Shown here: piece by piece, positions 23,153 through 51,281 of the stretch
Layout of the letters: every line of letters starts with the position of its first letter
Numbering within the stretch: position 1 is the first letter of the stretch
Assembly (NCBI GenBank): GCA_902587125.1
Contig: CACIJW010000007.1
Coordinates: forward strand, 1-64,000
Origin: an uncultured Bacteroidota bacterium
GTDB taxonomy: Bacteria; Bacteroidota; Bacteroidia; Flavobacteriales; BACL11
Reading direction: 5' to 3'
Length of the DNA: 64,000 nt
Notes under the pieces: generated by a model
Database searches by the model: none
Told to the model about the DNA's origin: nothing
Seen by the model: only the letters and a program-made list of their open reading frames with translations
Made by a program: the position numbers and the translations under genes

Positions 23153-23181
23153 TTGGCAAATTTATAAAAACGGTATTTTTG
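23153..23181 (+). promoter_or_regulatory. ribD promoter, -7 box 4 bases from start codon
   Basis: TTG (23153-23155), an 18-base spacer, and TATTTTTG (23174-23181) give a complete -33/-7 promoter. The -7 box is followed by AATT and the GTG start of ribD. There is no room for a leader, which argues against an FMN riboswitch on this gene. Confidence 0.65.
23157..23164 (-). promoter_or_regulatory. -7 box of prmC, 4 bases from start codon
   Basis: On the minus strand the sequence is TAAATTTG, then CCAA, then the GTG start. This exact TAnnTTTG match implies transcription starting at or next to the start codon. It lies back-to-back with the ribD box (23174-23181) in the same 33-base gap. A -33 TTG is not evident. 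Confidence 0.6.
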
Positions 23182-23185
23182 AATT

Positions 23186-24211
23186 GTGAAAAATCATGAA
23201 TTTTATATGAGAAGATGTTTGGAGCTAGCATCAAAAGGCAAAGGGTCTGTTAATCCAAACCCCCTTGTTGGATGTGTAATTGTACATGATTCAAAAATAA
23301 TATCTGAAGGCTTTCATGAAAGATTTGGAGGATCGCATGCAGAAGTTAATGCTATCACAAAAGTTAATAATAAAAAAACTCTCAAAGATTCCACATTATA
23401 TGTTAATCTTGAGCCATGTTGCCATCATGGAAAAACTCCACCCTGTACAGATCTTATTATCAGCTCTGGGATCCAAAATGTTGTTATAGGCTCAAAAGAT
23501 CCTAATTCAAAAGTTAATGGAAAAGGAATCAAAAGATTACAAGCAAACAATATTAAAGTTACTTATGATATCTTAGTAAAAGAGTGTATTGAACTAAATT
23601 ATCTATTCTATTTTTTTCATTCAAATACAAGACCATTTATTACTTTAAAATGGGCTGAAAGTAAAGATGGCTTTACTGCACCCCATAATCAAAACCAAAA
23701 ATTTTGGATGACAAATGAAAAAAGTAAAAAAATTGCACATCAGATCAGATCAGAAAGAAATATAATTTTAGTAGGAAACAAAACAGTTATAAAGGATAAC
23801 CCTTTTCTTACTGATAGATACTACAATAACAATCCAATCAGAGCATTGATTGATTTGAATCTAAAAGTGGATCTCAATCATAACATTTTTAATAGTGATA
23901 CAAAAACTTATATTTTTAATCTTGTCAAAAACGAAATAAATGACTCAAATATTTTTGTCAAAATCTCAAAAGAAAATACAATTCGGGATATTATAAAATT
24001 TTGCTATGATAATAATTACCACTCTTTACTTGTCGAAGGGGGGGCATATACTCACAATGAATTCATTAAAATTGGATTGTGGGACGAAATAGTAATTTTT
24101 AAAACCAATAAAATTTTAAATACTGGTACAAAAGCACCTAATTTTTCAGGTAGGATTATCGAAGAGAAACAATTAAATGATAACATCAAATTTAAAATAA
24201 AACCTGATTAA
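23186..24211 (+). CDS. ribD: Bifunctional riboflavin biosynthesis deaminase/reductase RibD
   Basis: 341 residues. The N-terminal deaminase domain has HAE (51-53) and the zinc cysteines C78 and C87 in PCCHHGKTPPC; the C-terminal reductase domain (from about 150: FITLKWAESKDG) carries LLVEGGAY. It converts the GTP-derived pyrimidine into the ribitylamino precursor of riboflavin. The start is GTG; the internal ATG (residue 8) would cut the conserved EFYMRRCLELA block. It shares one base with the next gene (TAATG), so they are coupled. Confidence 0.95.
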   Translation: MKNHEFYMRRCLELASKGKGSVNPNPLVGCVIVHDSKIISEGFHERFGGSHAEVNAITKVNNKKTLKDSTLYVNLEPCCHHGKTPPCTDLIISSGIQNVVIGSKDPNSKVNGKGIKRLQANNIKVTYDILVKECIELNYLFYFFHSNTRPFITLKWAESKDGFTAPHNQNQKFWMTNEKSKKIAHQIRSERNIILVGNKTVIKDNPFLTDRYYNNNPIRALIDLNLKVDLNHNIFNSDTKTYIFNLVKNEINDSNIFVKISKENTIRDIIKFCYDNNYHSLLVEGGAYTHNEFIKIGLWDEIVIFKTNKILNTGTKAPNFSGRIIEEKQLNDNIKFKIKPD

Positions 24212-25038
24212 TGCTGTACTTAACAATTTCGATTTTCTTTGTAGTGTCATTATTTCTTTTTTTTAAAGAGTTCAAAAGGTTTGAGATTTCAAATCATCAA
24301 GCAATCACCATAAATTATTTAGTCTCATTCTTAGTTTCATTTATTTTAATTCCAGATAAACAAATTATAAGTCTTGAACTAATCAACTCTTGGATTTTAC
24401 CAACAATTTTTTTAGGCAGCATGTTCTTTGTAATGTTTAATGTAATGGGAGTTGCAACTCAAAAACTTGGACTTCCTGCTGTGTCTGTAGCTGGTAAAAT
24501 GTCATTAATTATACCAGTAATTTCGTCTTATTTATTTTTAGATGGAAATTTAGAGTTTATTGGCTGGATCGGTATTCTCATTGGAATAGTATCAATATTT
24601 TTAACTCTTTACACAGATAACTTTAAGATTTCAAAGCTTGCCATAATCCTTTTTTTTGGCTCAGGACTTTTAGATTCACTTCTAGCCTATATTGAGAACA
24701 AATTACTTTTTGGACAAAACTTTGAAATATTTACTAGTGTTGTTTTTTTCACAGCATTCAGTTCTGGAATAATATATCTAAAAATAAATAAAACTAAATG
24801 GTGTAAAAAAAGTATTATCGGAGGTGCTTTACTGGGAATATTTAATTATTTCTCACTTTATTTTGTACTAATTACTTTTAGAGATATAGGTAGCATAATT
24901 ACTTTTCCAATTTTAAACATAAGTGTAGTTTTAATTACTTCAATCATTGGATGGATTTATTATAAAGAAAAGTATAGAAGTATTAATTTTTATGGTGTTA
25001 TCTTGGCCTGCATATCTATTTATCTAATTTCAAATTAA
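24211..25038 (+). CDS. EamA/DMT-family inner membrane transporter
   Basis: 275 residues, almost entirely hydrophobic helices (about nine or ten), as in the drug/metabolite transporter superfamily. A second EamA half ends with IGWIYYKEKYRSINFYGVI, typical of the final repeat. Substrate cannot be read from sequence; being coupled to ribD (one shared base) hints at nothing more than co-expression. It abuts the next gene with no gap. Confidence 0.82.
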   Translation: MLYLTISIFFVVSLFLFFKEFKRFEISNHQAITINYLVSFLVSFILIPDKQIISLELINSWILPTIFLGSMFFVMFNVMGVATQKLGLPAVSVAGKMSLIIPVISSYLFLDGNLEFIGWIGILIGIVSIFLTLYTDNFKISKLAIILFFGSGLLDSLLAYIENKLLFGQNFEIFTSVVFFTAFSSGIIYLKINKTKWCKKSIIGGALLGIFNYFSLYFVLITFRDIGSIITFPILNISVVLITSIIGWIYYKEKYRSINFYGVILACISIYLISN

Positions 25039-25638
25039 ATGTTATTTAAAAATAATTATTGTGAAATTGTTGACGAAAATTTCAATTCATTGATCATTCA
25101 AAAAAGTAAATTTATTTCTTACGCGTTTAAAGTATATGACTTAAATCAAGTCAAAAGAAAATTAGATTTACTTAAAAAGAAACATAAAAAAGCTAATCAC
25201 CACTGCTATGCTTATGTTTTATCACTGGACTCATCAATACAAAAGAGCTCGGATGATGGAGAGCCAAGTTCTACTGCGGGTAAACCTATTCTAAATCAAA
25301 TTAAAATAAATGATTTAACAAATATTTTAATTGTAGTTATTAGATATTTTGGGGGAAAGAAATTAGGGATATCAGGGCTTATAGGCGCATATAAAACTTC
25401 ATCAAATGAATTAATAAAAAAATGTGCAATACAATCAAAAGAAATCATAGATATTTATGAAATTGAGTTCGAAGAAAGTAACAAGCATAATCTATTAAAT
25501 GCCATAAAAAAAAATAATTTTAAATATGAAAATTTAAATCAAAGAGCATGCAATATTCATGTTAAAAGATCTTATACTAAATCATTAGAAAATTTAAACA
25601 TATTTTTGACAAACAAAAAATATTTAAGTAGTGAGTGA
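25039..25638 (+). CDS. YigZ/IMPACT family protein
   Basis: 199 residues. The N-terminal UPF0029 domain shows KSKFISYAF, HHCYAYVL, SSDDGEPSSTAGKPIL and VIRYFGGKKLGISGLIGAY, the signature of the YigZ/IMPACT family; a short C-terminal domain follows. Eukaryotic IMPACT regulates translation; the bacterial role is not established. The ATG directly follows the EamA stop codon, and the 3' end overlaps the M42 peptidase start by 8 bases. Confidence 0.9.
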   Translation: MLFKNNYCEIVDENFNSLIIQKSKFISYAFKVYDLNQVKRKLDLLKKKHKKANHHCYAYVLSLDSSIQKSSDDGEPSSTAGKPILNQIKINDLTNILIVVIRYFGGKKLGISGLIGAYKTSSNELIKKCAIQSKEIIDIYEIEFEESNKHNLLNAIKKNNFKYENLNQRACNIHVKRSYTKSLENLNIFLTNKKYLSSE

Positions 25639-26548
25639 TTATAATCTTTTAAAAAAACTTTGTGAAATAAATGCAACTTCAGGAAGCGAACATAAACTAA
25701 CTTCCTTTTTAATCAATCATATTAAAAAAAACCAAAAAAATTGGAAACAAGTACCCAAAATTTATCATGGAGAAAATTTTCAAAATAATATCGTCTTATC
25801 TTTTGGAAAGCCTAAAACTGCAATTTTTGCTCACATTGATTCAATTGGCTATACAGTTTCTTACAATAATAACGTCGTTAAAATTGGTGGCTCTAAATTT
25901 GAAAATGATATCAGTTTAGTTGGAGAAGATTCACAAGGAAATATTGAGACAACTTTAAAAATTGAAAAAGAAAGAGCTTTTGTTAAGTACTCAAGAATTA
26001 TCGACAGGGGAACTCCTCTTTCATACAAAGTAGATTTCAAATTGAATAATGAATATGTACAGTCCGCATATTTAGATAATCGTTTGGGCGTTTACTCTGC
26101 ATTAAAAGTAGCAGAAAATTTAACAAACGGTGTTATAGTTTTTTCTACGTGGGAAGAACATGGAGGTGGTTCAGTATCATATCTTTCGAAATTTATCTTC
26201 GAGAAGCTTGGAATTAATAAAGCACTTATTTCAGATGTCACATGGGTTACAAAAGGCATTAAACACAATAAAGGTGTTGTAATATCATTGCGTGATAGTG
26301 CAATACCACGTAAAATTTTTCTTGATTCAGTTATTGAAATTGCTAAAAAACACAAAATAAAGTACCAATTAGAAGTTGAATCATCAGGTGGTAGTGATGG
26401 AAATGAAATTCAAAAAAGCCCCTTTCCTATTGACTGGTGTTTTATTGGAGCTGCTGAAGATAATGTGCATACTCCGATTGAAAAAGTTCATCTAAATGAC
26501 ATAGAGTCAATGATTGAATTTTACAAAGTTTTGATGAGAGAACTTTAA
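25631..26548 (+). CDS. M42-type metallo-aminopeptidase
   Basis: 305 residues. Candidate metal ligands appear in family order: H68 and D70 (AHID), D149 (LDNRLG), E175-E176 (WEEHGG, with the catalytic glutamate), D202 (SDVTW) and H280 (NVHTP). This fits the M42/M28 co-catalytic two-metal aminopeptidases that trim peptides in the cytoplasm; no signal peptide is present. The start is GTG inside the end of the YigZ-family gene, an 8-base overlap. It converges on and overlaps the propeller lipoprotein by 4 bases. Confidence 0.85.
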   Translation: MSDYNLLKKLCEINATSGSEHKLTSFLINHIKKNQKNWKQVPKIYHGENFQNNIVLSFGKPKTAIFAHIDSIGYTVSYNNNVVKIGGSKFENDISLVGEDSQGNIETTLKIEKERAFVKYSRIIDRGTPLSYKVDFKLNNEYVQSAYLDNRLGVYSALKVAENLTNGVIVFSTWEEHGGGSVSYLSKFIFEKLGINKALISDVTWVTKGIKHNKGVVISLRDSAIPRKIFLDSVIEIAKKHKIKYQLEVESSGGSDGNEIQKSPFPIDWCFIGAAEDNVHTPIEKVHLNDIESMIEFYKVLMREL

Positions 26549-27624
26549 TTTCCTCTAAAAATAAAATCAATTACATTACTTGAAAAAGTTATCGTATCAG
26601 TAATTGAATCAAGAAATGGATTATACTTATAAATCGAATTAGGGTTATTCAAATCATTTGAATATATCATTTCTGTATAAACAAAAGTTGTGTCAGTATC
26701 ATAATACTTTTCAACATTTAAGGCTATCTTGTTAGCTTGAAGATCTAAAATTTTAGAGTATGATAACGATGGGTAATAAATTCTGTAGATACCATCTGAT
26801 GCGGTAAAAAATAATGCTGAACCATTATAATTTTCAACTAGTGACTGAGCATTATATACATTGTTTAAGTTGACGCTAGAAATTACATAATGGTCCCAAG
26901 GATTAACAACATAAAAGGAAGACTCACTATCATTTGAATTATTATTTATATTGTAAATACCCTTACATAGAACTTTAAGTTGATCAGAAAAAACTGCTGA
27001 TGAAGGGTTGTCACCAACTATTACTTCACCTGAGAAGTCAGCGATCGAAACTAGACCGTCTTTGTAGTCGATTGAAACAATTGTAGTATCTTTTTTAGAT
27101 GATGTTTGACCACCTGAATTCAAAACGTAAGCTCTCCAAAATTTGTTAACTATAAAATTTGGTTTAGTACTGTCTCCTGTTTCAATTATTGTAGTTATAT
27201 CATTTGTTGTTAAGTCAATAACTTTAACCTTTGAATCACCTCTGTCTGTAACAAAAATTCTTCCATAATCAAGATACTGACAATCAGTTGGGTTGATTAA
27301 TCCATTAAAAGAATTTCCACTTATAGAGTTTTCAATAAATAAATTATTCAAGTTGACAATATCAATCTTATTTGAAGTAACATACATTTTGTTGGAAGTA
27401 ATTCTAATTTTTTTTGGGTTATTAAATGATAACCCTATTTGTGATGTTATATCAATTGGGTCATTTGAATTATTATTTAGAGGAGCGTAAAAAGATACAT
27501 TATTTTCACAAAGGATGTATAAACCATCACCGGGTCCAACTAAAGATGGCACCTCACTCTCCTCCTCAGTACTACAGGAAATAATTATTGATAAACAAAA
27601 AAAGCATGTAAGCCATTTATTCAT
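26545..27624 (-). CDS. Lipoprotein with predicted beta-propeller (YncE/DUF5074-like)
   Basis: 359 residues. Lipoprotein signal MNKWLTCFFCLSIIISC with the lipid-modified Cys about residue 17, then a low-complexity linker (STEEESE). The rest is short beta-rich repeats with blade-like patterns such as RIFVTDRGDSKVKVIDLTTN and AYVLNSGG, resembling YncE-type or DUF5074 surface propellers. Function is unknown; a surface or periplasmic location is inferred. It is 3 bases after the HMG-CoA lyase gene. Confidence 0.78.
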   Translation of the reverse strand: MNKWLTCFFCLSIIISCSTEEESEVPSLVGPGDGLYILCENNVSFYAPLNNNSNDPIDITSQIGLSFNNPKKIRITSNKMYVTSNKIDIVNLNNLFIENSISGNSFNGLINPTDCQYLDYGRIFVTDRGDSKVKVIDLTTNDITTIIETGDSTKPNFIVNKFWRAYVLNSGGQTSSKKDTTIVSIDYKDGLVSIADFSGEVIVGDNPSSAVFSDQLKVLCKGIYNINNNSNDSESSFYVVNPWDHYVISSVNLNNVYNAQSLVENYNGSALFFTASDGIYRIYYPSLSYSKILDLQANKIALNVEKYYDTDTTFVYTEMIYSNDLNNPNSIYKYNPFLDSITDTITFSSNVIDFIFRGN

Positions 27625-27627
27625 ATC

Positions 27628-28467
27628 TCAAAAATAATTAAAATTTTCTACTACTTCATTAAGTCTACTTAATGATAGATTATGCCCACGGCCATGATTT
27701 TCCAGAAATGATATTAATTTTTCAGTTGGTAAATTTCCAACTAAGTCATTATTTGCCATAGGACAACCACCAAACCCCTTAATCGTTGAATCAAATCTTC
27801 TACAACCACTTTTATATGCAGAACGTAGTATTGCATCGCAATTTGACAGAGACGTGTGAAAATGAGCTCCAAATTCGATATTAGGATAGCTGTTTGTTAA
27901 GTTGCTAAATAATTTTTCAATTAGATGAGGCGAAGAGACTCCTATTGTATCAGAGAGAGATATTGTTTTTATATCAAGTAAACTTAAATCATTACAGAAT
28001 TTTTCAACCATATCACTACTATAATGCTCTTTGTATGGGTTACCAAATGCCATGGATAAATAAACAACCAAATTTTTATCTTTTTTTTCAGCTATCTCTT
28101 TAATTCTACTCACTTCTTTCAGAGCCTCGACACAAGTCATTCCAGTATTTCTTAATTGAAATTCGTTTGATATGGACAATGGATAGCCTAAATATTCAAT
28201 TTTATCATATTCACATGCTTTATTTGCCCCTCTTGAATTAGCGATTATCGCCAACAATTTACTTTTAGTCTCGTTTAGATCTAATGCATCGATTACTTTC
28301 GAGGTATCTCTCATCTGTGGAACAGCTTTTTCTGAAACAAATGAACCAAAGTCTATTGTATCAAAGCCTATTTTCAAAAGTTTATTGATATAATGAATTT
28401 TTGTTTCAGTTGGAATAAATTTTTCTATCCCCTGCATAGCATCTCTTGGGCACTCAATTATTTTCAT
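27628..28467 (-). CDS. Hydroxymethylglutaryl-CoA lyase
   Basis: 279 residues from the ATG at 28467; a TTG two codons upstream (28473) is less likely. It is a TIM-barrel HMGL-like enzyme splitting HMG-CoA into acetyl-CoA and acetoacetate in leucine catabolism. It shows the substrate-binding arginine and metal aspartate (CPRDAMQG, R8/D9), the metal-binding HFH motif and the catalytic-cysteine loop GFGGCPMA. Short Bacteroidota-type version. It overlaps the pyrD stop by 14 bases; other leucine-degradation genes are not nearby. Confidence 0.9.
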
Positions 28468-29575: not shown

Positions 29576-29587
29576 TTATTTTTTTTA

Positions 29588-29595
29588 CAAAAATA
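29588..29595 (-). promoter_or_regulatory. -7 box upstream of pyrD
   Basis: On the minus strand it reads TATTTTTG, exact for TAnnTTTG, ending 12 bases before the pyrD ATG, within the 36-base gap after the XRE gene. A -33 TTG at standard distance is not seen. Confidence 0.5.
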
Positions 29596-29611
29596 TAAGA
29601 ATGCATGATAA

Positions 29612-29902: not shown

Positions 29903-29911
29903 TTATTTTCG

Positions 29912-30170: not shown

Positions 30171-30178
30171 TATATTTG
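30171..30178 (+). promoter_or_regulatory. -7 box of the DtxR-type gene, 3 bases from start codon
   Basis: TATATTTG is followed by TTT and then the ATG at 30182. Exact TAnnTTTG match; a TTA rather than TTG lies 19 bases upstream. Transcription would begin at or near the ATG. Confidence 0.6.
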
Positions 30179-30181: not shown

Positions 30182-30838
30182 ATGTTTTCAAAATCAGAAG
30201 AAAATTATTTAAAGTCTATATTCTCGCTAAAGCAAAAAACTAACAACGCTATATCAACTAACGATATTGCTAAGGATATAAATATTTCTCCCTCCTCTGT
30301 TTCTGATATGCTAAAGAAATTAGAAAAAAAAGATTTAATCAGTTACACAAAATATAAGGGAGTCGATTTAACTAGTAAAGGCTATCTACACGCAAAAATA
30401 ATTCTAAGAAAGCATAGATTGTGGGAAACATTTCTAGTAAAAAAGCTCGATTTCAGTTGGCATGAGGTTCATGAAATTGCTGAACAATTAGAACATATTA
30501 AATCTGATAAACTAATCAATAAGATAGATGAGTTTCTAGACTTTCCTAAATACGACCCTCACGGAGAACCTATACCCTCTGAAGAAGGTTTGATACCTAG
30601 CAATAATTATTCAGTGCTAGCAGATTCTGAAATAGGATGTAAAGCCACAATTATGGGAGTAAATAATGATGATTCTTTATTTTTAATTTACTTAGATGAG
30701 GTAGGCATAAATATTGGAAACAAGATTGAAATCATTAAAAAAATAAACTTTGATAATTCAATTGAAATTAAAATCAATCAAAAAAAATTACACATAACTG
30801 ATCAAGTAGCAAAACATTTATTAATTAAAAAACATTAA
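30182..30838 (+). CDS. DtxR/MntR-family metal-dependent transcriptional regulator
   Basis: 218 residues from the ATG at 30182; a TTG six bases upstream overlaps the -7 box and is rejected. An N-terminal winged helix (SEENYLKSIFSL, STNDIAKDINISPSSVSDMLKKL) is followed by the dimerisation and metal-binding domain (HRLWETFLV, HEVHEIAEQLEHI), DPHGEPIPS, and a C-terminal FeoA/SH3-like domain. Such proteins repress metal importers when Mn or Fe is sufficient. One base separates it from the ZIP transporter, so it probably controls that gene and itself. Which metal it senses cannot be told. Confidence 0.92.
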   Translation: MFSKSEENYLKSIFSLKQKTNNAISTNDIAKDINISPSSVSDMLKKLEKKDLISYTKYKGVDLTSKGYLHAKIILRKHRLWETFLVKKLDFSWHEVHEIAEQLEHIKSDKLINKIDEFLDFPKYDPHGEPIPSEEGLIPSNNYSVLADSEIGCKATIMGVNNDDSLFLIYLDEVGINIGNKIEIIKKINFDNSIEIKINQKKLHITDQVAKHLLIKKH

Positions 30839-30839
30839 A

Positions 30840-31724: not shown

Positions 31725-31732
31725 TATCTTTG
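31725..31732 (+). promoter_or_regulatory. -7 box of smpB, 4 bases from start codon
   Basis: TATCTTTG, then TAAG, then the GTG start at 31737. It is an exact TAnnTTTG match within the 30-base gap after the ZIP gene. No -33 TTG at the standard distance. Confidence 0.58.
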
Positions 31733-31736: not shown

Positions 31737-32195
31737 GTGAGATCAAAGATTAATATATTAAACAGAAAAGTAAAATATGAGTATTTTATATTAAGCAGCT
31801 TTAATGCAGGTATCATGCTTACTGGTAGTGAAATTAAATCTATCAGAAATAATGATGCTAATATTTCTGACTGTTACTGCCTATTTAAAGACAAAGAATT
31901 ATTCGCCAGAAATATTTACATATCAGAATACAAAAACTCGGGCTATTCAGACCATGACTGTACTAGAGACAGAAAATTATTATTAAATAAAACAGAGCTT
32001 GATAAGATCTTTGATAAAGTCAGAGAAAAAGGAATTTCGGTTGTAGCCAAAAGACTATATATTAATGAGAAAGGTCTTGCCAAAATTGAAATTTCAATTG
32101 TAAAGGGTAAGAAACTTTATGATAAAAGAAATAGCATCAAGGATAGGGACAATAAGATTAAGTTAGATAAATTAAAGAAAAACTTTAATGCTTAG
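31737..32195 (+). CDS. smpB: SsrA-binding protein SmpB
   Basis: 152 residues. SmpB carries tmRNA to stalled ribosomes for trans-translation. It shows NRKVKYEYFILSSFNAGIMLTGSEIKSIR at the N-terminus (OB fold) and the basic tail KGKKLYDKR that mimics the anticodon arm. The start is GTG; the -7 box 4 bases upstream supports it, although the N-terminus is a few residues shorter than many homologues. It overlaps the next gene by 8 bases. The tmRNA gene itself is not in the window. Confidence 0.95.
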   Translation: MRSKINILNRKVKYEYFILSSFNAGIMLTGSEIKSIRNNDANISDCYCLFKDKELFARNIYISEYKNSGYSDHDCTRDRKLLLNKTELDKIFDKVREKGISVVAKRLYINEKGLAKIEISIVKGKKLYDKRNSIKDRDNKIKLDKLKKNFNA

Positions 32196-34658: not shown

Positions 34659-34666
34659 TATATTTG
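34659..34666 (+). promoter_or_regulatory. -7 box of gene at 34671, 4 bases from start codon
   Basis: TATATTTG, then TATT, then the ATG at 34671. Exact TAnnTTTG match lying in the 15-base gap between two divergent genes, so its -33 region must be inside the LuxC-like gene. Confidence 0.58.
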
Positions 34667-34670: not shown

Positions 34671-35567
34671 ATGCAATTATTAAAAATCAAAAATATATTT
34701 TTTTGCTTTCTTCTAATGTCGTTTTCAACTAACATTTATGGGCAAAAAGCATCTAAGTCCTTATTTGGTGAATACGAGGATACTTTAAAATATTTACATA
34801 ACAAAATTGTTTTTACTAAAGATGACGATGTAAAATTAAATTTTAATAATTCATTTAAAAATATACTTAATGAGGTTTTAGAATTTGACAACTCCTTTCA
34901 ATACCCCTTTGACTCACTAAAAAATATTTCAAGACTTTACTCACCAGACAAAAAATTAAGGATTTATAATTGGTTTCTAGAAAAAGAAAATAAAGAAATC
35001 TTATACTATTGTATAATTCAATATTACGACAAAAGAAAAAAAGAATTTTTGACCCAAGATCTTTACGATAATTCAAAAAATTTGAGAAATGTTGAAAAAA
35101 AAATTTTAGATTCAGATAATTGGTTCGGTTGCTTGTATTATGAAATAATTCAAGAAAAGAAAAATGGCAAGCAATATTATACCCTACTTGGCTGGGACGG
35201 AATTGATGAATATAGCACACAAAAAATTATTGATGTGCTTCATTTTACAAGAAACAAAATCACATTTGGTCATCCTATATTCATTAAAGAAAAAAATAAA
35301 GATAATAGAGTTTTGATAGAATATGATGAAAGAACAAGTGTATCTCTTTCATACAATAAAAAAGAGAAGAAGATTATTTTTAACAATCTCATTCCAATTA
35401 AAAAAGAGCTAGAGGGACTTCATGAGTACTATGTTCCTGATGGATCTAATAACAGTTACAATTACAAAAGTGGTAAATGGATTTTTGAGAAAGATATAGA
35501 TGCTAGAAATGATAAAAATAATAGTTCCAGAAAAAAACCCAAAATGGGCCTACTACCCTCCAGATGA
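34671..35567 (+). CDS. Exported protein of unknown function
   Basis: 298 residues with a signal peptide (to about residue 25, STNIYGQ). I do not recognise a named domain. Visible features are YSPDKKLRIYNWFLEKENKEILYYCIIQYY and YYTLLGWDGIDEYSTQKIIDVL, a mixed alpha/beta protein seen in Bacteroidota as a conserved hypothetical. The C-terminus is basic and polar (SSRKKPKMG). It overlaps rnhB by 4 bases, so the two are coupled. The divergent start of the LuxC-like gene is only 15 bases away. Confidence 0.75.
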   Translation: MQLLKIKNIFFCFLLMSFSTNIYGQKASKSLFGEYEDTLKYLHNKIVFTKDDDVKLNFNNSFKNILNEVLEFDNSFQYPFDSLKNISRLYSPDKKLRIYNWFLEKENKEILYYCIIQYYDKRKKEFLTQDLYDNSKNLRNVEKKILDSDNWFGCLYYEIIQEKKNGKQYYTLLGWDGIDEYSTQKIIDVLHFTRNKITFGHPIFIKEKNKDNRVLIEYDERTSVSLSYNKKEKKIIFNNLIPIKKELEGLHEYYVPDGSNNSYNYKSGKWIFEKDIDARNDKNNSSRKKPKMGLLPSR

Positions 35568-39622: not shown

Positions 39623-40508
39623 ATGGTAAGTCTAAGTCATACAAATAATTAAAACCCAGATTACCATAAATTCCTCCTGTGTGAATCAAAAGCACCTTTG
39701 ATTTTCTTTGAAAATATCTTCTATTAATTAATTCTTCAAAACCAAAGAACATCTTGGTAGTATAATTAAGATCCAAAGTTATCTTATTATTTGATTTAAA
39801 TTTTTTCAAGTATTTAGTTAATAAACTATCAAATTTAGCAAAACCACCAAAATTGAATTCATTTATTATTTTCCAATTATTTTTATTTGTTTTTTGGGAA
39901 ACGTTATTGTTTAGTTCGTTTATCTCATTGATACAATTAATTCCAATTATTTTTTGTGTGCTTTTGCTAGAATTAACAATTCCTGATATTGTGGCTCCAG
40001 TTCCTATTGGACAAATAATATAATCAAATGTCTTATCTTGTTTTTCTAATATTTCCTCGGCTCCTAAAACACCTAGTTTATTATTACCTCCTTCAGGAAC
40101 TATATATGCTTTTTTATATTTTCTAGCTAGTTCACTTACATATTTATTGTCGTTTCTTTTTGAATACTCTTTTCTTGAAACAAAACAAAACTTCATTCCA
40201 TATTCTTTTGCAAGAGTAAGTAATGGATTAAGTTCAAAATACTCCTCTCCTCTTACAATTGCAAGACAATCAATATTTTTTTTCTTTGCGTATGCTGCAG
40301 TAGCCAAAATATGATTTGAAAAAGCACCACCAAAAGTGATCAACATATTTTTTTTCTCTAATAAAGCGCGATCAACATTATACTTGAGCTTAAATAATTT
40401 ATTGCCTGAAATAAGTGGGTCTATTAAATCTAATCTTTTAACAAAAACTTCAATCTCATTATTTAAATATAGATCTGAGAAAATTTGTTGATTTAGTTTA
40501 GAGTTCAT
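39609..40508 (-). CDS. PLP-dependent deaminase, ACC deaminase / D-cysteine desulfhydrase family
   Basis: 299 residues from the ATG at 40508; a TTG two codons upstream overlaps the -7 box and is rejected. It is a fold-type II PLP enzyme: SGNKLFKLKYN carries the likely PLP lysine, GGAFSNHILA the substrate-binding Ser-Asn-His, and CPIGTGATISG the phosphate loop. Substrate (ACC, D-cysteine or another amino acid) cannot be set from sequence. A -7 box ends 3 bases before the ATG, and a divergent box serves the DUF5522 gene. Confidence 0.88.
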   Translation of the reverse strand: MNSKLNQQIFSDLYLNNEIEVFVKRLDLIDPLISGNKLFKLKYNVDRALLEKKNMLITFGGAFSNHILATAAYAKKKNIDCLAIVRGEEYFELNPLLTLAKEYGMKFCFVSRKEYSKRNDNKYVSELARKYKKAYIVPEGGNNKLGVLGAEEILEKQDKTFDYIICPIGTGATISGIVNSSKSTQKIIGINCINEINELNNNVSQKTNKNNWKIINEFNFGGFAKFDSLLTKYLKKFKSNNKITLDLNYTTKMFFGFEELINRRYFQRKSKVLLIHTGGIYGNLGFNYLYDLDLPYESN

Positions 40509-40511: not shown

Positions 40512-40519
40512 CAAATATA
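40512..40519 (-). promoter_or_regulatory. -7 box of the PLP deaminase gene, 3 bases from start codon
   Basis: On the minus strand it reads TATATTTG, then TGC, then the ATG. Exact TAnnTTTG match, 13 bases away from the divergent box at 40533-40540. Confidence 0.6.
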
Positions 40520-40532: not shown

Positions 40533-40540
40533 TAAATTTG
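40533..40540 (+). promoter_or_regulatory. -7 box of the DUF5522 gene, 3 bases from start codon
   Basis: TAAATTTG, then CAA, then the ATG at 40544. Exact TAnnTTTG match. The 35-base gap between the divergent starts holds both boxes, so each -33 region lies near or inside the opposite gene. Confidence 0.6.
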
Positions 40541-40543: not shown

Positions 40544-40735
40544 ATGCATAATTTTGACAACAAAAAAGTTCTACAAAACGATGACTTTTACCAAAGTGAT
40601 GATGGATTCATTGTTTTCACTGAAAATTATCATCTAAAGAGAGGTTATTGTTGTAAAAACAATTGTAAACATTGTCCATATAATTACAAGAAAAATGATG
40701 AATCTAAAAGAGGAAATAAGAAAAGGGATTCCTAG
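40544..40735 (+). CDS. Small cysteine-rich protein, DUF5522
   Basis: 63 residues from the ATG at 40544 (a TTG start at 40523 would lie upstream of the -7 box and is rejected). The motif GYCCKNNCKHCPYNYK (about 37-52) is the hallmark of DUF5522, a short family with four clustered cysteines that could bind a metal or an iron-sulfur cluster. Function is unknown. Its last 41 bases overlap the start of hutU in another frame. Confidence 0.85.
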   Translation: MHNFDNKKVLQNDDFYQSDDGFIVFTENYHLKRGYCCKNNCKHCPYNYKKNDESKRGNKKRDS

Positions 40736-42701: not shown

Positions 42702-43328
42702 TCACCAATCAAAGTCTTCCCCCTCTAATATTTTCCATAAATATAAAGAAGCAATTGTTCTGTAGGGACTCCATCTTTTAGCAATTTTATCTGCCTCATC
42801 AAAATTTGGTCTTACTTCAAGATTGAATATAATTTTTATAGCATTCAACAAACCTATGTCTTTATTTGAAAAAACATCAATTCTTCCCATAGAAAAGATT
42901 AAAAACATTTCTGAGGTCCATGTACCAATTCCCTTTATCGATGATAGAGTTTTTATAATATCATCATTTGACATTTTTTTTAGACCTACATATGAACTAT
43001 TATCAAGAAATGACTGACTTAGGATTCTCAAATATTCTACTTTCCTGAAGCTCATACCAGTATCTTTTAATTTGTTCTCTTTTTGCTTTAGAACTTGCTC
43101 AGCCGAAATATTGTTATTTAATAAGGAGGTAAATCTAGAAAATGTAGCTGAGGCTGATTTTATACTTAATTGTTGAAAAATTATATACCTACACAAAGAG
43201 AAAAAATAATCTTCATTAATGTTGATTTTTGGTGGTTCTATGTTTTTCACATATTTTCCAAGAATATCATCTTTTCCCAAAAATTTTATTGCATCTATAA
43301 ACGAAGTTTTATTTATCTCTAATTTCAA
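42702..43328 (-). CDS. DNA-3-methyladenine glycosylase, AlkA-like (HhH-GPD)
   Basis: 208 residues. Base-excision-repair glycosylase that removes alkylated bases. The helix-hairpin-helix is at about 129-141 (LSSIKGIGTWTSE), and the catalytic aspartate is D157 in DVFSNKDIGL. IIFQQLSIKSA (49-59) is the typical glycosylase helix. The N-terminal AlkA domain is missing, as in the shorter single-domain family members. It overlaps the 3' end of pheT by 20 bases, so the two are probably co-transcribed. Confidence 0.92.
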   Translation of the reverse strand: MKLEINKTSFIDAIKFLGKDDILGKYVKNIEPPKININEDYFFSLCRYIIFQQLSIKSASATFSRFTSLLNNNISAEQVLKQKENKLKDTGMSFRKVEYLRILSQSFLDNSSYVGLKKMSNDDIIKTLSSIKGIGTWTSEMFLIFSMGRIDVFSNKDIGLLNAIKIIFNLEVRPNFDEADKIAKRWSPYRTIASLYLWKILEGEDFDW

Positions 43329-45732
43329 TTGAAAAATCTGACTGTAATTTAGTTATTATCCTTTCGATGCATTTATCTATCTGAAAATCTGTTAATGTTT
43401 TTTCAAGATGCTGGAAAGTAATATAAATACTATAAGATTTCTTATCATCTTTTTTATTACTGTAAACATCAAAGAGAGAGACTGACGTAATTAATTCAAT
43501 ATTAAGCTCTTTTATAGACTTTTCGATCTTGTAGTAGTTAATATCACTTTGTACATAAAATGATAAATCTCGTCTCACTGAAGGAAATTTTGAAAAAGGA
43601 GAGAATGAAATATTATGACCTGAAACTATTTTTGATAAGTTTTCTAAATTGATATTTGAACAAAAAACATCATTTTTAATATCAAAATTTTTATTTGTTT
43701 CAGTACTTATCTTTCCTATATCTAAAATAAATAAATCACCTTTGAAATAAGACAAGCCATATTCAAAATAATCTTTTTTGTTGTTGATTAATTTCAAGTT
43801 GTCAATTGAAAGGCTTTGTAATAATTTATCTACGTATTCTTTTAAATCATAGAAATCATATAATTTATTTTCTTTATTCCAATTAATTTTTTCTTTAACG
43901 TTTGATAAAGAAATAATTAAATTCTCTTTTTCATTATAGTTATCACCTTCTTTGAGGTATGTTTTGCCAAATTCAAAAAGCCTTATGTCTTTATTATTTC
44001 TTTTGAAATTGTATGAAATATTATTCAAAGCAGATATGAGCATATTAGATCGCATTGAATTTAACTCTTTGCTTTTAGGGTTAATAATATTCACAATTTT
44101 AGACTCGTCACTAAACAACATGTTGATTTCTTTATTAACTAAAGAATTACTCATTGCCTCACTAAAACCATTTGAAACAAAAAAATGATTTATATTATTT
44201 ATAAATTTTGAATCAAAATTTTGTTGTGAAGATTCTTTAAAATTGTATGAAATATTTACGGTTTCTGGATTATATGAATTGTAGCCAAAAATTCTTAAAT
44301 ACTCTTCAACTAGATCGATTTCTCTATTTACGTCATACCTGTAGGCTGGAATACTAACCTTTAAGTTATTGTTGAATTCTTCTAAAATTTTGATATCCAA
44401 ACTTGAAAAAATATTCAACACATCAGATTTATTCGCCTTAAAACCACAGATTTTGCTTAAATTATCAATACTAAAATTTATTTCTTTATCAATTAGCTCT
44501 TTGGGGTAAATATCAATTATTTCAGAAATTTCTTTTGTTTCACAAATATCGCAGATGAGACTAGCTGCATATTTTAATGATTTAATTGTAATTGAAGGAT
44601 CTACACCTCTTTCAAATCTAAATGATGCATCAGAACTAATAGAATGGTTTTTTGCACTTTTCCTTACTGAAATTTGGTCAAAAAGAGCTGACTCTAAAAA
44701 AATTGATTTAGTTCCAGAATTGACTGATGATTCTATTCCTCCCATCACACCTGCAATACACATAGGGTTTTTATCATTACAAATAAGTAAATCCTCATTG
44801 TTAAGATCTCTATTGATTTCATCAAGTGTTACAATTTTTTCTCCAATTCTAGCATTTCTTACAATAATTTCTTTTCCATTAATCTTATTGTAATCAAATG
44901 CATGTAAAGGTTGACCAATGTCATGCAAAACATAATTTGTTATATCTACAACATTGTTTATAGACTTAACACCAATTGATGTTAATCTTTTCTTTAACCA
45001 GTCTGGTGACTCCTTAATTTTTAAATCTTTAATGATTAATCCCGAGTATCTTAAGCAGTTATCATTTTGAATAGTTACATTTAAGTCTAATTTATCTTTA
45101 AATTCAATACCACTGATTTGATTATAATCTTTTAGTAGCTGATTACTCTTTCCCGATTGAAAGTTTAAATATGCATTAATATCTCTAGCTACTCCAAGAT
45201 GAGACATTGCATCACATCGATTTGGGGTAAGACCTATTTCAAAGATGTAGTCAAACTCTGATTTATAAAAATCAATAAGCCTTTTACCAATTTTGAATTT
45301 ATCATCTAAAATCATGATGCCATCATTATCACTGCCTAGGTTAATTTCTTTTTCCGAGCATATCATTCCCTCGGAGACTACTCCTCTAAGTTTTGATCTT
45401 TTTATTTTAAATTTTTTATCACCATCGTGTAAGGATGTTCCAATTTTTGCAATAGGTACATTAATATTCTTTTTTACATTAGGAGCACCGCATACGATAT
45501 TCAAAATTTCTCCTCCAACATCGACTTTAGTGACCTTCAGCCTGTCTGCGTTTGGATGTTGATCGATGTCAATGATTTTACCTACAACGATACCTTCCAA
45601 ATCACCAACGATATTAGAGCTTTTAGTAATAGATTCTACCTCTAAACCTATTGAAGTTAAAATTTCAGCTAGTTCATCTGAACTTAAGTCTAAATTTATA
45701 TGTTCTTTAATCCAGGAATAAGAAATTTTCAT
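43309..45732 (-). CDS. pheT: Phenylalanyl-tRNA synthetase beta subunit
   Basis: 807 residues, full length. With PheS it charges tRNA-Phe. Domains in order: N-terminal tRNA-binding OB fold (about 40-150, DQHPNADRLKVTKVD), B3/B4 editing domain, B5 domain, a catalytic-like core, and the C-terminal FDX-ACB anticodon-binding domain (SKFPSVRRDLSFYV onward). pheS is not adjacent, which is common in Bacteroidota. A -7 box ends 4 bases before the ATG. Confidence 0.97.
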   Translation of the reverse strand: MKISYSWIKEHINLDLSSDELAEILTSIGLEVESITKSSNIVGDLEGIVVGKIIDIDQHPNADRLKVTKVDVGGEILNIVCGAPNVKKNINVPIAKIGTSLHDGDKKFKIKRSKLRGVVSEGMICSEKEINLGSDNDGIMILDDKFKIGKRLIDFYKSEFDYIFEIGLTPNRCDAMSHLGVARDINAYLNFQSGKSNQLLKDYNQISGIEFKDKLDLNVTIQNDNCLRYSGLIIKDLKIKESPDWLKKRLTSIGVKSINNVVDITNYVLHDIGQPLHAFDYNKINGKEIIVRNARIGEKIVTLDEINRDLNNEDLLICNDKNPMCIAGVMGGIESSVNSGTKSIFLESALFDQISVRKSAKNHSISSDASFRFERGVDPSITIKSLKYAASLICDICETKEISEIIDIYPKELIDKEINFSIDNLSKICGFKANKSDVLNIFSSLDIKILEEFNNNLKVSIPAYRYDVNREIDLVEEYLRIFGYNSYNPETVNISYNFKESSQQNFDSKFINNINHFFVSNGFSEAMSNSLVNKEINMLFSDESKIVNIINPKSKELNSMRSNMLISALNNISYNFKRNNKDIRLFEFGKTYLKEGDNYNEKENLIISLSNVKEKINWNKENKLYDFYDLKEYVDKLLQSLSIDNLKLINNKKDYFEYGLSYFKGDLFILDIGKISTETNKNFDIKNDVFCSNINLENLSKIVSGHNISFSPFSKFPSVRRDLSFYVQSDINYYKIEKSIKELNIELITSVSLFDVYSNKKDDKKSYSIYITFQHLEKTLTDFQIDKCIERIITKLQSDFSIEIRDK

Positions 45733-45736
45733 TTAA

Positions 45737-45744
45737 CAAAAATA
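45737..45744 (-). promoter_or_regulatory. -7 box of pheT, 4 bases from start codon
   Basis: On the minus strand TATTTTTG is followed by TTAA and the ATG. Exact TAnnTTTG match in the 32-base gap after the substrate-binding protein gene. A TTG is present 15 bases upstream, a little closer than the normal spacing. Confidence 0.58.
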
Positions 45745-45764
45745 ATAATTAGAATTCATCAACA

Positions 45765-47318: not shown

Positions 47319-47378
47319 AATTTTTCTAAAGATAGCGATGTTTTAAAAAAAATTGAACTTAATATTAGTAAGTGTTTA

Positions 47379-47386
47379 TATTTTTG
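47379..47386 (+). promoter_or_regulatory. -7 box of mtaB, 4 bases from start codon
   Basis: TATTTTTG, then CAAA, then the ATG at 47391. Exact TAnnTTTG match in the 72-base gap between divergent genes. A TTG lies 23 bases upstream and a TTA 17 bases upstream. Confidence 0.58.
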
Positions 47387-47390
47387 CAAA

Positions 47391-48689
47391 ATGAAAACTG
47401 TAGCATTTCATACATTAGGATGTAAACTTAATTTCTCAGAAACATCTACGATAAAAAGACAACTAATTGCAAGTGGATTAATCGAAAGTTCTTTTCATAA
47501 GGGGGCTGATTTATTTATAATTAATACGTGCTCCGTTACTGAGAATGCAAACAAAGAATGTAGAAGATTAATCAGAAAAGCAAAAAAAATATCGCCTAAC
47601 TCTAGAGTTATCATAACTGGTTGTTATGCACAATTAAAGCCTGAATCTATTATTGAAATTGATGGTGTTGACTTAGTTGTAGGTGCTAAAGAAAAGTTTA
47701 ATATTTTCAAATATTTAAACAATTTTAAAAAAGGAATTCACGGATGTGAAATAAATAATCTTGATTACTTCCCATCTTTTAGTATTGAAGAAAGATCAAG
47801 ATCATATGTTAAAGTTCAAGATGGCTGTAATTATCCTTGCACTTATTGTACAATCCCGCTAGCTAGAGGTAAAAGTAGATCTGATTTTATAAAAAATATA
47901 ATATCCAAAATTGAAGATATTGGAAGCAAAGGAACTAAAGAAGTTGTTTTAACTGGTGTAAACATTGGTGATTATAAAGAACCGATTAGTAACAAAAATT
48001 TCTTTGACCTGATTAATGAAATTGAGAAAGTTGATGTAATTGATAGGTTCAGAATTTCATCAATAGAACCAAACCTCATAACAGATGAAATCATTGATTT
48101 TGTTAAAAATTCAAAGAAATTTGTTCCTCATTTTCACATACCACTTCAATCTGGGTCTGATAATATTCTCAAATCTATGAAGAGAAGATACAACACAAGT
48201 ATCTACATAAATAGAATTAAGAGAATTAAAGAAAAAATTGAAAATGTTTGTATAGGTGCTGATGTTATCGTTGGTTTTCCTAACGAAACTGAAGAAGAAT
48301 TTGAAAAAACTTTTAAACTCATAAAAAATTTAAAACTGTCTTATCTACATGTTTTTTCATTCTCTGAAAGAGAAAATACACTTGCAAATGAGATGAAAGG
48401 TAAAATAGACAAGTTTATTATTTCTAAAAGATCGAAAAGATTAAGAATTCTTTCTGAAAAACTCAAATACAGTTACTACAGAAAGTTCTCCAATATAAAA
48501 AAGGAAATTATAGTTGAGGGTAAAAATAAAAATGGTTATCAATATGGTTTCACTGACAATTATCTCAAAGTTAGAATTCCATCCTCCAAAGATTTTACCA
48601 ATAAAAAAATCAAAGTTCAACTTGGTAAAATTAAAGAAGATTGTATTTTTGAAGGAAACCCAATTCTAGAGGATGTATCCAAATATTAG
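47391..48689 (+). CDS. mtaB: tRNA t6A37 methylthiotransferase MtaB
   Basis: 432 residues. Radical-SAM enzyme that adds a methylthio group to t6A at position 37 of tRNAs. The N-terminal UPF0004 domain has conserved cysteines (TLGCKLN, INTCSVT, ITGCYAQ) for one [4Fe-4S] cluster; the radical-SAM motif is DGCNYPCTYCTIPLARG (CxxxCxxC); a C-terminal TRAM-like domain follows. The cysteine spacing and CKLN start fit MtaB rather than MiaB or RimO. It overlaps lgt by 17 bases. Confidence 0.92.
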   Translation: MKTVAFHTLGCKLNFSETSTIKRQLIASGLIESSFHKGADLFIINTCSVTENANKECRRLIRKAKKISPNSRVIITGCYAQLKPESIIEIDGVDLVVGAKEKFNIFKYLNNFKKGIHGCEINNLDYFPSFSIEERSRSYVKVQDGCNYPCTYCTIPLARGKSRSDFIKNIISKIEDIGSKGTKEVVLTGVNIGDYKEPISNKNFFDLINEIEKVDVIDRFRISSIEPNLITDEIIDFVKNSKKFVPHFHIPLQSGSDNILKSMKRRYNTSIYINRIKRIKEKIENVCIGADVIVGFPNETEEEFEKTFKLIKNLKLSYLHVFSFSERENTLANEMKGKIDKFIISKRSKRLRILSEKLKYSYYRKFSNIKKEIIVEGKNKNGYQYGFTDNYLKVRIPSSKDFTNKKIKVQLGKIKEDCIFEGNPILEDVSKY

Positions 48690-49827
48690 TTACTTAATAG
48701 AAGATTTAACAGGTATTTACATACCACTACCAATACAAACATTTGGATTCTGTGTTGCTCTAGCTTTTTTATTTGGATCATATTTTATTTCTCTTGAACT
48801 AAAAAGAAAAGAAAAACTTGGTTTAATTGGTTCAACAAAAGTTGATAAAATAATTGGACAAAAGATTTCTAATCAACAAATATTAATTAGCCTACTCATT
48901 GGTTTTTTAATTGGTTATAAGCTTTTAGACGCAATTATACATTATTCGGACTTTGTAAATAATCCGCAAACATTTATTTTATCTTCAAGAGGCTCATTAA
49001 TTGGAGGTATTTTAGGCTCCTTATTCTCCTGCTTTAGAGATATTAGAAATAATAAAAAAACAAGACTTAAAAAACCAAAAAAAATTACTATTGATGTTCA
49101 CCCCCATGAACTAGTGGGGAATTTAATAATGGTTGCAGCTATTTCAGGTATAATTGGTGCTAAAATTTTTCATAATCTTGAAAATATTGACGATTTCATG
49201 AGAGATCCGATAAATCAAATATTAAGCTTTAGCGGATTAACTTTCTATGGAGGTTTAATATTTGGAGTATATTTCGTTTTAAGATATGCAAAAAAATATA
49301 ACCTAAATAACTTTCATTTGTTTGATGCATTTGCTCCATCATTAATTTTAGCATATGGTATTGGAAGAATGGGATGTCATCTTTCAGGAGACGGTGATTG
49401 GGGAATTGTAAATTTAAATCCAAAACCAGAAACACTAAACTTTCTGCCGGACTGGATGTGGAGTTACAACTACCCAAATAATGTTATAAATGCGGGTATT
49501 CCAATAGAGGGATGTACTGGCAACTTCTGTATGCAATTAGCTGAGCCAGTCTATCCTACTCCATTTTACGAAATCATTTTAAGCCTATTAATCTTTTCTC
49601 TACTTTGGAAATTAAGAAAAAAAATTTCCACACCTGGGCTACTTTTTAGTATTTATCTTTTTTTTAATGGATTAGAGAGATTCTTTATTGAAAAAATAAG
49701 AGTAAACACAGAATACCAAATACTAGGTGGAATAACTCAAGCTGAGATTATTTCCTCGATGCTTATGTTGACATCAATTGTTCTAGCACTTCACGTAACT
49801 AGAAAAATTAATTTTTTCTACAAATAA
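48673..49827 (+). CDS. lgt: Prolipoprotein diacylglyceryl transferase
   Basis: 384 residues, polytopic inner-membrane protein. It attaches diacylglycerol to the lipobox cysteine, the first step in lipoprotein maturation, and so serves the several lipoproteins in this window. Typical elements are LPIQTFGFCVALAF near the N-terminus, FSGLTFYGGLIFG, the active-site region GRMGCHLSGDGDWG and YPTPFYE. The GDGDWG form and greater length (E. coli Lgt is about 290) are typical of Bacteroidota. It overlaps mtaB by 17 bases and the convergent symporter gene by 20. Confidence 0.94.
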   Translation: MYPNISYLIEDLTGIYIPLPIQTFGFCVALAFLFGSYFISLELKRKEKLGLIGSTKVDKIIGQKISNQQILISLLIGFLIGYKLLDAIIHYSDFVNNPQTFILSSRGSLIGGILGSLFSCFRDIRNNKKTRLKKPKKITIDVHPHELVGNLIMVAAISGIIGAKIFHNLENIDDFMRDPINQILSFSGLTFYGGLIFGVYFVLRYAKKYNLNNFHLFDAFAPSLILAYGIGRMGCHLSGDGDWGIVNLNPKPETLNFLPDWMWSYNYPNNVINAGIPIEGCTGNFCMQLAEPVYPTPFYEIILSLLIFSLLWKLRKKISTPGLLFSIYLFFNGLERFFIEKIRVNTEYQILGGITQAEIISSMLMLTSIVLALHVTRKINFFYK

Positions 49828-51232
49828 GTAATAAAAGAAAAGTTATTAAACCATTTATTATTAAAAGCTCGAACCCTATTGAGCTAAATCTCATTTTGAT
49901 AAAGTAGCAGATAACTGGTGAAACAATGCAAATTAAAGGAACCAGCTTGTCTCTTATATTAATTTTTGTGAACATACCAAATGAATAAAGTCCAAGCAAG
50001 GGACCATATGTATAACCGGCCACAGTGAAAAGCGATTTTATTACACTTTGATCATTAATAGAACGGAATAATAAAATCACAACTAATAAAACTAATGATA
50101 ACAGCAAATGTGAATACTTTCTAATAAAAATTTGCTTTTCAGAATTATACTTTTTAAAATCAATAATATCAACACAAAATGATGTAGTAAGAGAGGTAAG
50201 AGCAGAATCAGCTGAAGAATATGCAGCAGCAATTATTCCAATAATAAATAAAATACCTACATACTCAGGTAGTCCTGAGTTTAAAGCAATATTAGGAAAT
50301 AACATATCAGCATCAGAGGGAATAGCTAAGCCTATCTCAGATGAATAAATATAAAGTAGTGCTCCCAGTGATAGAAAGAGCAAATCAACAACAATTAAAA
50401 TCGTACTAAAAACAAACATATTTTTCTTTGCTTCACCTAAATTTTTACAACTAAGATTTTTTTGCATTTGATCTTGATCAAGCCCTGTCATAACAATTGC
50501 CATAAAAACACCAGAAAGGAATTGTTTTAAAAAATGTTTTTGATCACCAAAATCATCAAAAAAGAAAACTTTAGAATAAGACGAATTTTGTATTGTGTCA
50601 ATAACTTGAGAGAAATTTAGTCCCAAGCTTTTGGAAACAGAAATAGCAATAATTAGTACAGTAGCTAACATAAATGTAGTTTGTAAAGTATCTGTCCAAA
50701 TAATTGTCTTTATTCCACTTCTGTATGTATATATCCAGATTAATGAAAGTGTAATTATGACTGTGAGAAAAAATGGAAAGTTCCAACTATCAAAAATTGC
50801 AAATTGCAAAACACTTGCTATTAAATAAAGACGAAAAGATGCACCAATGGTTCTAGAAATTAAAAAACATATTGACCCGGATTTGTATGAAAATTTACCA
50901 AATCTATCTTCTAAATAGGTATAAATGCTGGTTAATCCAAGCTTATAATAAAGTGGTAATAATAATCTAGCAATAACTTGGTATCCAAAAAAGAATCCAA
51001 AAACCATTTGCATGTAGCTAAATTGACTTGACTCAACCCATCCAGGAACAGAAATAAATGTAATCCCTGAAAGTGTTGTCCCAATCATTCCATAGGCAAC
51101 AATGTACCAAGGTGAATTTCTATTTCCTAAAAAGAATGCTTCATTACTATCATTTCTACTAGTAAAATATGAAACAATAAAAAGAATTGTGAAATATATT
51201 AATATGCATGTTAAAATTACACTTGGATTCAT
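49808..51232 (-). CDS. Sodium:solute symporter (SSS family)
   Basis: 474 residues with about thirteen membrane helices. Family motifs include FFLGNRNSPWYIVAYGMIGTTLSGITF near the N-terminus and AAAYSSADSALTSLTTSF in the region corresponding to the sodium-binding helix 8. Substrate is not identifiable. The gene stands alone. Its start has a -7 box 4 bases upstream, back-to-back with that of recR. The 3' end overlaps lgt by 20 bases. Confidence 0.93.
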   Translation of the reverse strand: MNPSVILTCILIYFTILFIVSYFTSRNDSNEAFFLGNRNSPWYIVAYGMIGTTLSGITFISVPGWVESSQFSYMQMVFGFFFGYQVIARLLLPLYYKLGLTSIYTYLEDRFGKFSYKSGSICFLISRTIGASFRLYLIASVLQFAIFDSWNFPFFLTVIITLSLIWIYTYRSGIKTIIWTDTLQTTFMLATVLIIAISVSKSLGLNFSQVIDTIQNSSYSKVFFFDDFGDQKHFLKQFLSGVFMAIVMTGLDQDQMQKNLSCKNLGEAKKNMFVFSTILIVVDLLFLSLGALLYIYSSEIGLAIPSDADMLFPNIALNSGLPEYVGILFIIGIIAAAYSSADSALTSLTTSFCVDIIDFKKYNSEKQIFIRKYSHLLLSLVLLVVILLFRSINDQSVIKSLFTVAGYTYGPLLGLYSFGMFTKINIRDKLVPLICIVSPVICYFIKMRFSSIGFELLIINGLITFLLLLICRKN

Positions 51233-51236
51233 TAAA

Positions 51237-51244
51237 CAAAAATA
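51237..51244 (-). promoter_or_regulatory. -7 box of the sodium:solute symporter gene, 4 bases from start codon
   Basis: On the minus strand TATTTTTG is followed by TTTA and the ATG. Exact TAnnTTTG match. It shares the 53-base divergent gap with the recR box. Confidence 0.58.
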
Positions 51245-51273
51245 TATATTTAGAATTTTCTAATATTAATATT

Positions 51274-51281
51274 TAATTTTG
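51274..51281 (+). promoter_or_regulatory. -7 box of recR, 4 bases from start codon
   Basis: TAATTTTG, then TTTT, then the ATG at 51286. Exact TAnnTTTG match. Confidence 0.58.

Follow-up and report, generated by a model that had tools for sequence, protein, structure and literature searches.

Do the TAnnTTTG boxes that stand immediately before start codons in a 64,000-nucleotide stretch of DNA from an uncultured Bacteroidota bacterium (Flavobacteriales; BACL11; assembly GCA_902587125.1, contig CACIJW010000007.1, positions 1 to 64,000; hereafter, the window) mark genes whose transcription begins on the start codon itself? Leaderless messenger RNAs (mRNAs) are deemed rare in Bacteroidota, a phylum treated as initiating translation on A-rich leaders, and an earlier note on this DNA had listed eleven genes with an exact box 3 or 4 bases before the start, reading them as widespread leaderless transcription. 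Our analyses make it very likely that these boxes are placed as -7 promoter elements, with the transcription start site (TSS) on the start codon and leaderless mRNAs as the product.

All eleven boxes were recovered in the window (coordinates and strands in Table 1), with a box-to-start spacing of 4 at eight genes (prmC, ribD, smpB, gene 34671, pheT, mtaB, the Na symporter gene and recR) and of 3 at the genes for the DtxR-type repressor, the pyridoxal-phosphate (PLP) enzyme and the DUF5522 protein. The three GTG starts (prmC, ribD and smpB) were confirmed, as was the description of these genes as first in a transcription unit or following a gap (32 bases ahead of pheT, 30 bases ahead of smpB). 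The products fall into the families PrmC, RibD, iron-dependent repressor, SmpB, PALP enzyme, DUF5522, PheT, MtaB, SSF symporter and RecR; at E 0.001, gene 34671 matched nothing in Pfam or NCBIfam. One more box with spacing 4 at a called start, absent from the earlier note, precedes gene 26545-27624 (-), and may be either an internal leaderless promoter or a chance match. The window has a GC content of 29%, and its total of TAnnTTTG matches is not raised (112 vs 116.9 expected); the placement of the boxes is non-random, and the information lies in their position only, not in their number.

Table 1 Exact TAnnTTTG boxes ahead of start codons in the window, and further loci of the translation/tRNA modification set.
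Box	Position	Strand	Bases to start	Gene and start codon	Retention of spacing
TAAATTTG	23157..23164	(-)	4	prmC, GTG (22319-23152)	4 in 17/18 family loci
TATTTTTG	23174..23181	(+)	4	ribD, GTG (23186-24211)	4 in 18/18 family loci
TATTTTTG	27629..27636	(-)	4	in-operon gene, ATG (26545-27624; 3-base gap)	
TATATTTG	30171..30178	(+)	3	DtxR-type repressor, ATG (30182-30838)	
TATCTTTG	31725..31732	(+)	4	smpB, GTG (31737-32195)	
TATATTTG	34659..34666	(+)	4	gene without family match (34671-35567)	retained in L022
TATATTTG	40512..40519	(-)	3	PLP-dependent enzyme, ATG (39609-40508)	3 in L022-L024
TAAATTTG	40533..40540	(+)	3	DUF5522, ATG (40544-40735)	3 in L022-L024
TATTTTTG	45737..45744	(-)	4	pheT, ATG (43309-45732)	
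TATTTTTG	47379..47386	(+)	4	mtaB, ATG (47391-48689)	4 in 15/15 family loci
TATTTTTG	51237..51244	(-)	4	sodium:solute symporter, ATG (49808-51232)	
TAATTTTG	51274..51281	(+)	4	recR, ATG (51286-51903)	4 or 5 in 18/20 family loci
	L008:5373-6908, L011:16019-17149, L018:8727-9173, L019:4551-5546			four loci outside the window, translation/tRNA set	

We performed a genome-wide spacing test on the small genome of the window (1.54 Mb, 36 contigs), which belongs to a relative of Flavobacterium, sampling twenty 20-kb stretches (400 kb) outside the window together with the window itself. Genes were called with a home-made 3-periodic Markov model of coding potential (order 5 or order 3 by analysis; order 3 for the spacing counts and for the second-box control described below), which ignores upstream signals and covered 88% of the sample and 91% of the window. 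Genes with a divergent neighbour or a codirectional gap of at least 15 bases were classed as first-like and those with a smaller gap as in-operon; 1000 dinucleotide shuffles served as the null, and in-frame alternative starts within 60 bases were allowed where starts were corrected.

Outside the window, an exact box stood at spacing 4 in 15/136 first-like genes (shuffle mean 0.19, maximum 3) and in 1/179 in-operon genes, while the called starts of the window gave 5/24 first-like genes (shuffle mean 0.03) and 1/26 in-operon genes. Pooled, the called starts placed 20/160 first-like genes at spacing 4, and start correction raised the contrast to 25/160 first-like vs 2/205 in-operon genes (Fisher p = 5e-8). 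Among the 160 start-corrected first-like genes, spacings 0, 1, 2, 3 and 5 held 0, 1, 0, 3 and 2 genes, and each spacing from 5 to 9 held one or two. The excess over shuffled sequence at 3-4 bases implied by the earlier reading is strongly present, both inside and outside the window. One-mismatch boxes added little to the peak (8 at spacing 4, other spacings averaging 3.1, pooled over this genome). A secondary rise at spacing 10 (8/160) seems on inspection to consist of the usual short leaders together with a single mis-called start, that of prmC itself. A whole-genome pattern count gave 103 matches to TAnnTTTG-N4-ATG; the reversed pattern gave 21 and a spacing of 8 gave 43, two controls that differ perhaps because spacing 8 may include genuine short-leader promoters.

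In sequence, the boxes resemble promoters. Across the 24 boxes at spacings 3-5, G occupied the two free positions in 8% and 0%, and an exact -7 TAnnTTTG with free positions that are rarely G is the form of promoters of the Bacteroidota housekeeping sigma factor (sigma-ABfr). Boxes at spacing 4 showed the full six-base promoter consensus, with a T-rich flanking context and a rarity of G as in the boxes of leadered genes.

Conservation was investigated by searching the ribD, recR and mtaB proteins in 38 genomes each, which returned 30, 30 and 29 loci (a 30th mtaB locus, L207, was excluded as a paralog); these loci are partly non-independent, five ribD loci coming from one genus and two (L035 and L037) having identical flanks. 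Within the family of this genome (f1), the ribD loci at spacing 4 came from 12 genera, and prmC started with GTG or ATG, its one exception carrying a one-mismatch box in the same place. The prmC and ribD boxes were both retained in 17/18 family loci. For mtaB, all 11 loci from other f1 genera have a start displaced upstream by three codons, and their boxes are shifted to match, again at a spacing of exactly 4. The 20 f1 recR loci comprised nine at spacing 4, nine at spacing 5, and two carrying TAATTTTA at 4 and 5. The spacing was thus retained in orthologs with diverged flanks, which we had taken as our own criterion for leaderless genes. For smpB, the sole distant relative seen (L026) had no exact box within the scanned range.

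Outside f1, 6/12 ribD loci had a box 3-5 bases before the aligned start (at 4 in f3, f15, f2 and f7, at 5 in f5, and at 3 in f9, where the value rests on a GTG of unsure start use), and in f13 (L057) a box seen by eye precedes, at spacing 5, an in-frame ATG that is found two codons upstream. Similarly, 7/10 recR loci were at 4-5. None of the five loci outside f1 in which prmC adjoins ribD had prmC at spacing 4; and of the 14 mtaB loci, that of f4 showed spacing 4 at an alternative upstream start only, five were at 6 or 7, four were longer and four had no box. It seems that a set already spread over the order was enlarged in this family, ribD and recR having the spacing in several families and prmC and mtaB almost only in f1. 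The pheT gene was at spacing 4 in the three named relatives closest by pheT (the uncultured records Flavobacteriales metagenome-assembled genome (MAG) SP47, Bacteroidota AH-716-K08 and Bacteroidetes AG-453-C03, which we take to be marine). In three more distant relatives (L025, L026, L027) the spacing was longer, with 19 for both Paenimyroides and a Myroides MAG and 22 for AG-390-J14; judging from these upstream regions, pheT seems to have switched from a leadered to a leaderless state or the reverse.

The distribution of the pattern bears on whether this genome goes beyond the low percentage of leaderless genes reported earlier for flavobacteria. In F. psychrophilum, 5.5% of mRNAs are leaderless (PMC9723704), and in B. 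thetaiotaomicron 3.7% of 5' untranslated regions are shorter than 10 nucleotides (nt) (PMC7366714). Leaderless mRNAs, which the earlier note sets apart from the textbook Bacteroidota mode, are accordingly known in the phylum. We counted spacing 4 vs spacing 8 in 196 genomes of the order, of which 178 were tallied, the remaining 18 all belonging to f16. The f1 family gave 2948 vs 1454 matches (excess 30.9 per Mb; 31/31 genomes), and the window's genome ranked 6/178 by excess per Mb. The small-genome f8 genera g64 and g72 (G144, G151, G156, G160, G172, G176 and G187), a subgroup set apart as 'f8s' after its high counts were seen, gave 479 vs 127 (excess 29.8 per Mb), with a spacing-4/8 ratio above that of f1. 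The excess was graded elsewhere in the order (per Mb: f9 15.8, f15 13.7, f6 13.6, f14 12.8, f8 rest 11.6, f7 11.6, f3 6.8), and f10 and f16 showed none among the tallied genomes. Genome size and the 16S tail suggest Flavobacteriaceae for f3, Weeksellaceae for f6, and Blattabacterium with its kin for f16.

This gradient, and the ribD and recR spacings of 4-5 in other families, speak for an ordinary level of leaderless genes; the difference in excess between f1 and f3 speaks against it, as do the called starts of 200-kb samples, in which spacing 4 was found in 0/109 first-like genes of G038 (f3), 1/110 of G054 (f6), 1/85 of G049 (f14) and 1/100 of G062 (f16), vs 20/160 here. G013, from another f1 genus, gave 10/85. 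The caller covered only 72-76% of the DNA of G013, G038 and G054, which makes these rates less reliable than that of the window's own genome. On balance, we consider it unlikely that only the ordinary level is present. It looks rather as if a known kind of leaderless gene has been extended to a lineage in which it is several times commoner and is conserved gene by gene.

Where transcription would begin was considered from published maps. The box-to-TSS distance in F. johnsoniae is 4 or 5 nt (PMC6847099), and from such Flavobacterium maps we infer that transcription of spacing-4 genes begins at the start codon's first base, 4-5 bases beyond the box. The boxes would act as -7 elements of the housekeeping sigma factor, and the mRNA would carry AUG or GUG at its 5' end, to be recognised without a Shine-Dalgarno (SD) sequence or an A-rich leader; direct initiation at this 5'-terminal codon is proposed. 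Hardly any gene has a spacing of 0-2, in keeping with a TSS that is barred from the interior of the start codon; taken with the published distance, this makes the start codon the predicted 5' end. Start codons at spacing 4 were 18 ATG, 7 GTG and 0 TTG (in-frame candidates: 194 ATG, 29 GTG and 77 TTG), the first base being a purine in all 25. Transcription start sites favour a purine, and mycobacterial leaderless initiation tolerates GUG. The sharp left edge, the one-base mode, the few genes at 5-9 and the purine-first starts together fit transcription starting on the start-codon purine.

The boxes could also be real promoters whose TSS lies a few bases off, so that leaderless, 1-5-nt-leader and start-codon-truncated transcripts are mixed and translation proceeds mostly from further transcripts that do have leaders. 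The alternation of recR between spacings 4 and 5, the spacing of 3 at three of the eleven boxes, and the two-position span of TSS choice in F. johnsoniae (PMC6847099) would agree with such a mixture; the one-base mode at 4 and the sparse spacings beyond it suggest that exact placement has been selected, and we regard the mixture as improbable.

Still less probable is a motif that acts in translation, as a U-rich ribosome or S1 contact within a longer leader. The motif is positioned on the start codon, as such a signal should be, and S1-binding U-rich sites near -10 have been proposed to account for Bacteroidetes upstream biases (PMC5397173). However, the motif is nearly absent from in-operon genes, which are translated too, and it has the consensus and T-rich flanks of the leadered promoters. 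Furthermore, a second exact box 10-60 bases upstream was found at 1/25 spacing-4 genes vs 41/135 other first-like genes (p = 0.005), a control weakened by the short gaps ahead of many spacing-4 genes; because a second box is seldom present, the spacing-4 box seems to be the promoter of its gene. Finally, chance in AT-rich DNA, or starts picked to suit the box, would sit well with the low GC content and the unremarkable box total of the window, but is refuted to virtual certainty by a one-spacing peak in an independent sample whose starts came from coding potential only (15/136, with a maximum of 3 in 1000 shuffles) and by conservation of the spacing across genera.

Several observations weigh against placing the TSS on the start codon, or against the scale of the phenomenon. 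No clear column for the -33 TTTG element appeared among 24 aligned sites, although this element is weak in F. johnsoniae too. The three boxes at spacing 3 fall outside the published distance of 4-5. Only 6 of the 12 TAnnTTTG-N4-ATG matches in the window stand ahead of a called gene start, so that about half of the 103 genome matches are probably chance. A genome of another f1 genus, G005, gave only 3/98 genes at spacing 4 (plus 2 at spacing 5), published flavobacterial TSS maps, made in other genera, contain few leaderless mRNAs, and any one gene may possess a second, leadered promoter. These points leave in place the leaderless reading of the earlier note, which the genome-wide excess and the spacing kept across genera support, with the 5' end predicted from sequence.

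The word 'widespread' needs a limit. About one-sixth of unit-first genes qualify by an exact box; leadered promoters, many with A-rich leaders (the rpsU box is at spacing 19), are the majority in the genome, and the leaderless mode is a substantial second mode of moderate scale, which would coexist with the larger leadered class. Of 81 listed exact boxes at distances of up to 45 bases from a called start, 28 were at spacings 3-5, including 22 at 4 and 2 at 3 (contig-edge genes counted). We advance only tentatively, as possible and on the whole doubtful, that in streamlined uncultured Flavobacteriales leaderless AUG/GUG initiation is a main way of starting a unit, with anti-SD pairing abandoned as well, which would make translation initiation in a Bacteroidota lineage resemble that of mycobacteria or Deinococcus, and that exact boxes alone greatly understate its true share, many promoters being non-consensus.

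We examined the anti-SD sequence of the 16S ribosomal RNA. The 3' tail of this genome reads GGCTGGAATATCTCTTTT (locus L001, about bases 3007-3027; G000:C13), as do, as far as patterns show, the tails of four other readable f1 genomes; its core is UCUCU, not CCUCC, whereas f3 carries the CCTCC core. The leaders of 30 rpsU genes were read, short or unclear loci aside. The rpsU leader carries AAAGGAGGTG in f3 and TGAGATGT in f6, each of which matches its own tail, in line with the published account (PMC9976891). No complement to the 16S tail was seen by eye in the rpsU leader of this genus (G000, G003, G004; L086), so that SD pairing, including its last known use, appears fully lost. Loss of the anti-SD was tried and rejected as the cause of the leaderless mode: f16 genomes read UCUCU and have no excess, and f14 (G049) reads CCUCC and has one.

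Translation or tRNA modification accounts for eight of the 25 genes at spacing 4 (PrmC, SmpB, PheT, MtaB, GlyS, Tgt, DusB and a TadA-like protein that scores below the NCBIfam cut-off). In the window, the prmC and ribD starts stand back to back across 33 bases (23153-23185), both boxes being at spacing 4, and the upstream part of each promoter therefore lies inside the coding sequence of the other gene. The ribD loci of G012 (g9; L035) and G013 (g10; L037) have identical DNA just upstream (around base 1500), whereas the DNA upstream of mtaB and recR differs; contamination, mis-binning and recent transfer are alternative explanations.

With about one-sixth of first genes leaderless-looking and a one-base spacing kept across genera, start calling should change in this lineage, for GTG above all. 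The lineage furthermore offers a natural test of start selection by ribosomes that lack SD pairing and have a degenerate anti-SD, and the predicted leaderless state of recR and ribD can be checked in existing Flavobacterium TSS maps. Within open-licence papers, we found no earlier report of such a spacing pattern in uncultured Flavobacteriales.

Among known systems, the closest likeness is to the TA-led genes (PMC3160421), in which a TA-type element lies about 10-12 bases before the start, above dinucleotide shuffles and less often at operon-distal genes; the genes described here share both the fixed short distance and the unit-first placement, and differ in carrying the full TAnnTTTG and in belonging to an uncultured lineage. 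In that survey, Zheng et al. (2011) described many Bacteroidetes genes as atypical and found leaderless genes in 1/37 Bacteroidetes/Chlorobi genomes (2.4%); they allowed that this figure could be too low for Bacteroidetes owing to unusual promoters, but judged high hidden percentages unlikely. A 2017 survey noted upstream biases in Bacteroidetes and gave leaderless mRNAs or S1 sites as possible causes (PMC5397173). The box is the same as the -7 element of mapped Bacteroidota (PMC6847099, PMC7366714, PMC9723704), and so would be its TSS distance if the start codon is the first transcribed base; the mapped species differ in that leaders longer than 10 nt make up 87% of those predicted in F. johnsoniae, and few mRNAs are leaderless in F. 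psychrophilum. The 16S tail AAUAUCUCUUUU is near the UCUCA of Chryseobacterium and relatives, among Bacteroidota whose anti-SD is sequestered or altered (PMC9976891, PMC8710568, PMC6107228), with Blattabacterium listed among the genera lacking CCUCCU (PMC6107228); in this genus, by eye, the rpsU complement appears to have gone as well. Finally, as in mycobacteria, Streptomyces and Deinococcus-Thermus, where many transcription units start at the start codon (partly from Table 2 of PMC3160421), leaderless starts would be common, although from another promoter and in a phylum without general SD use.

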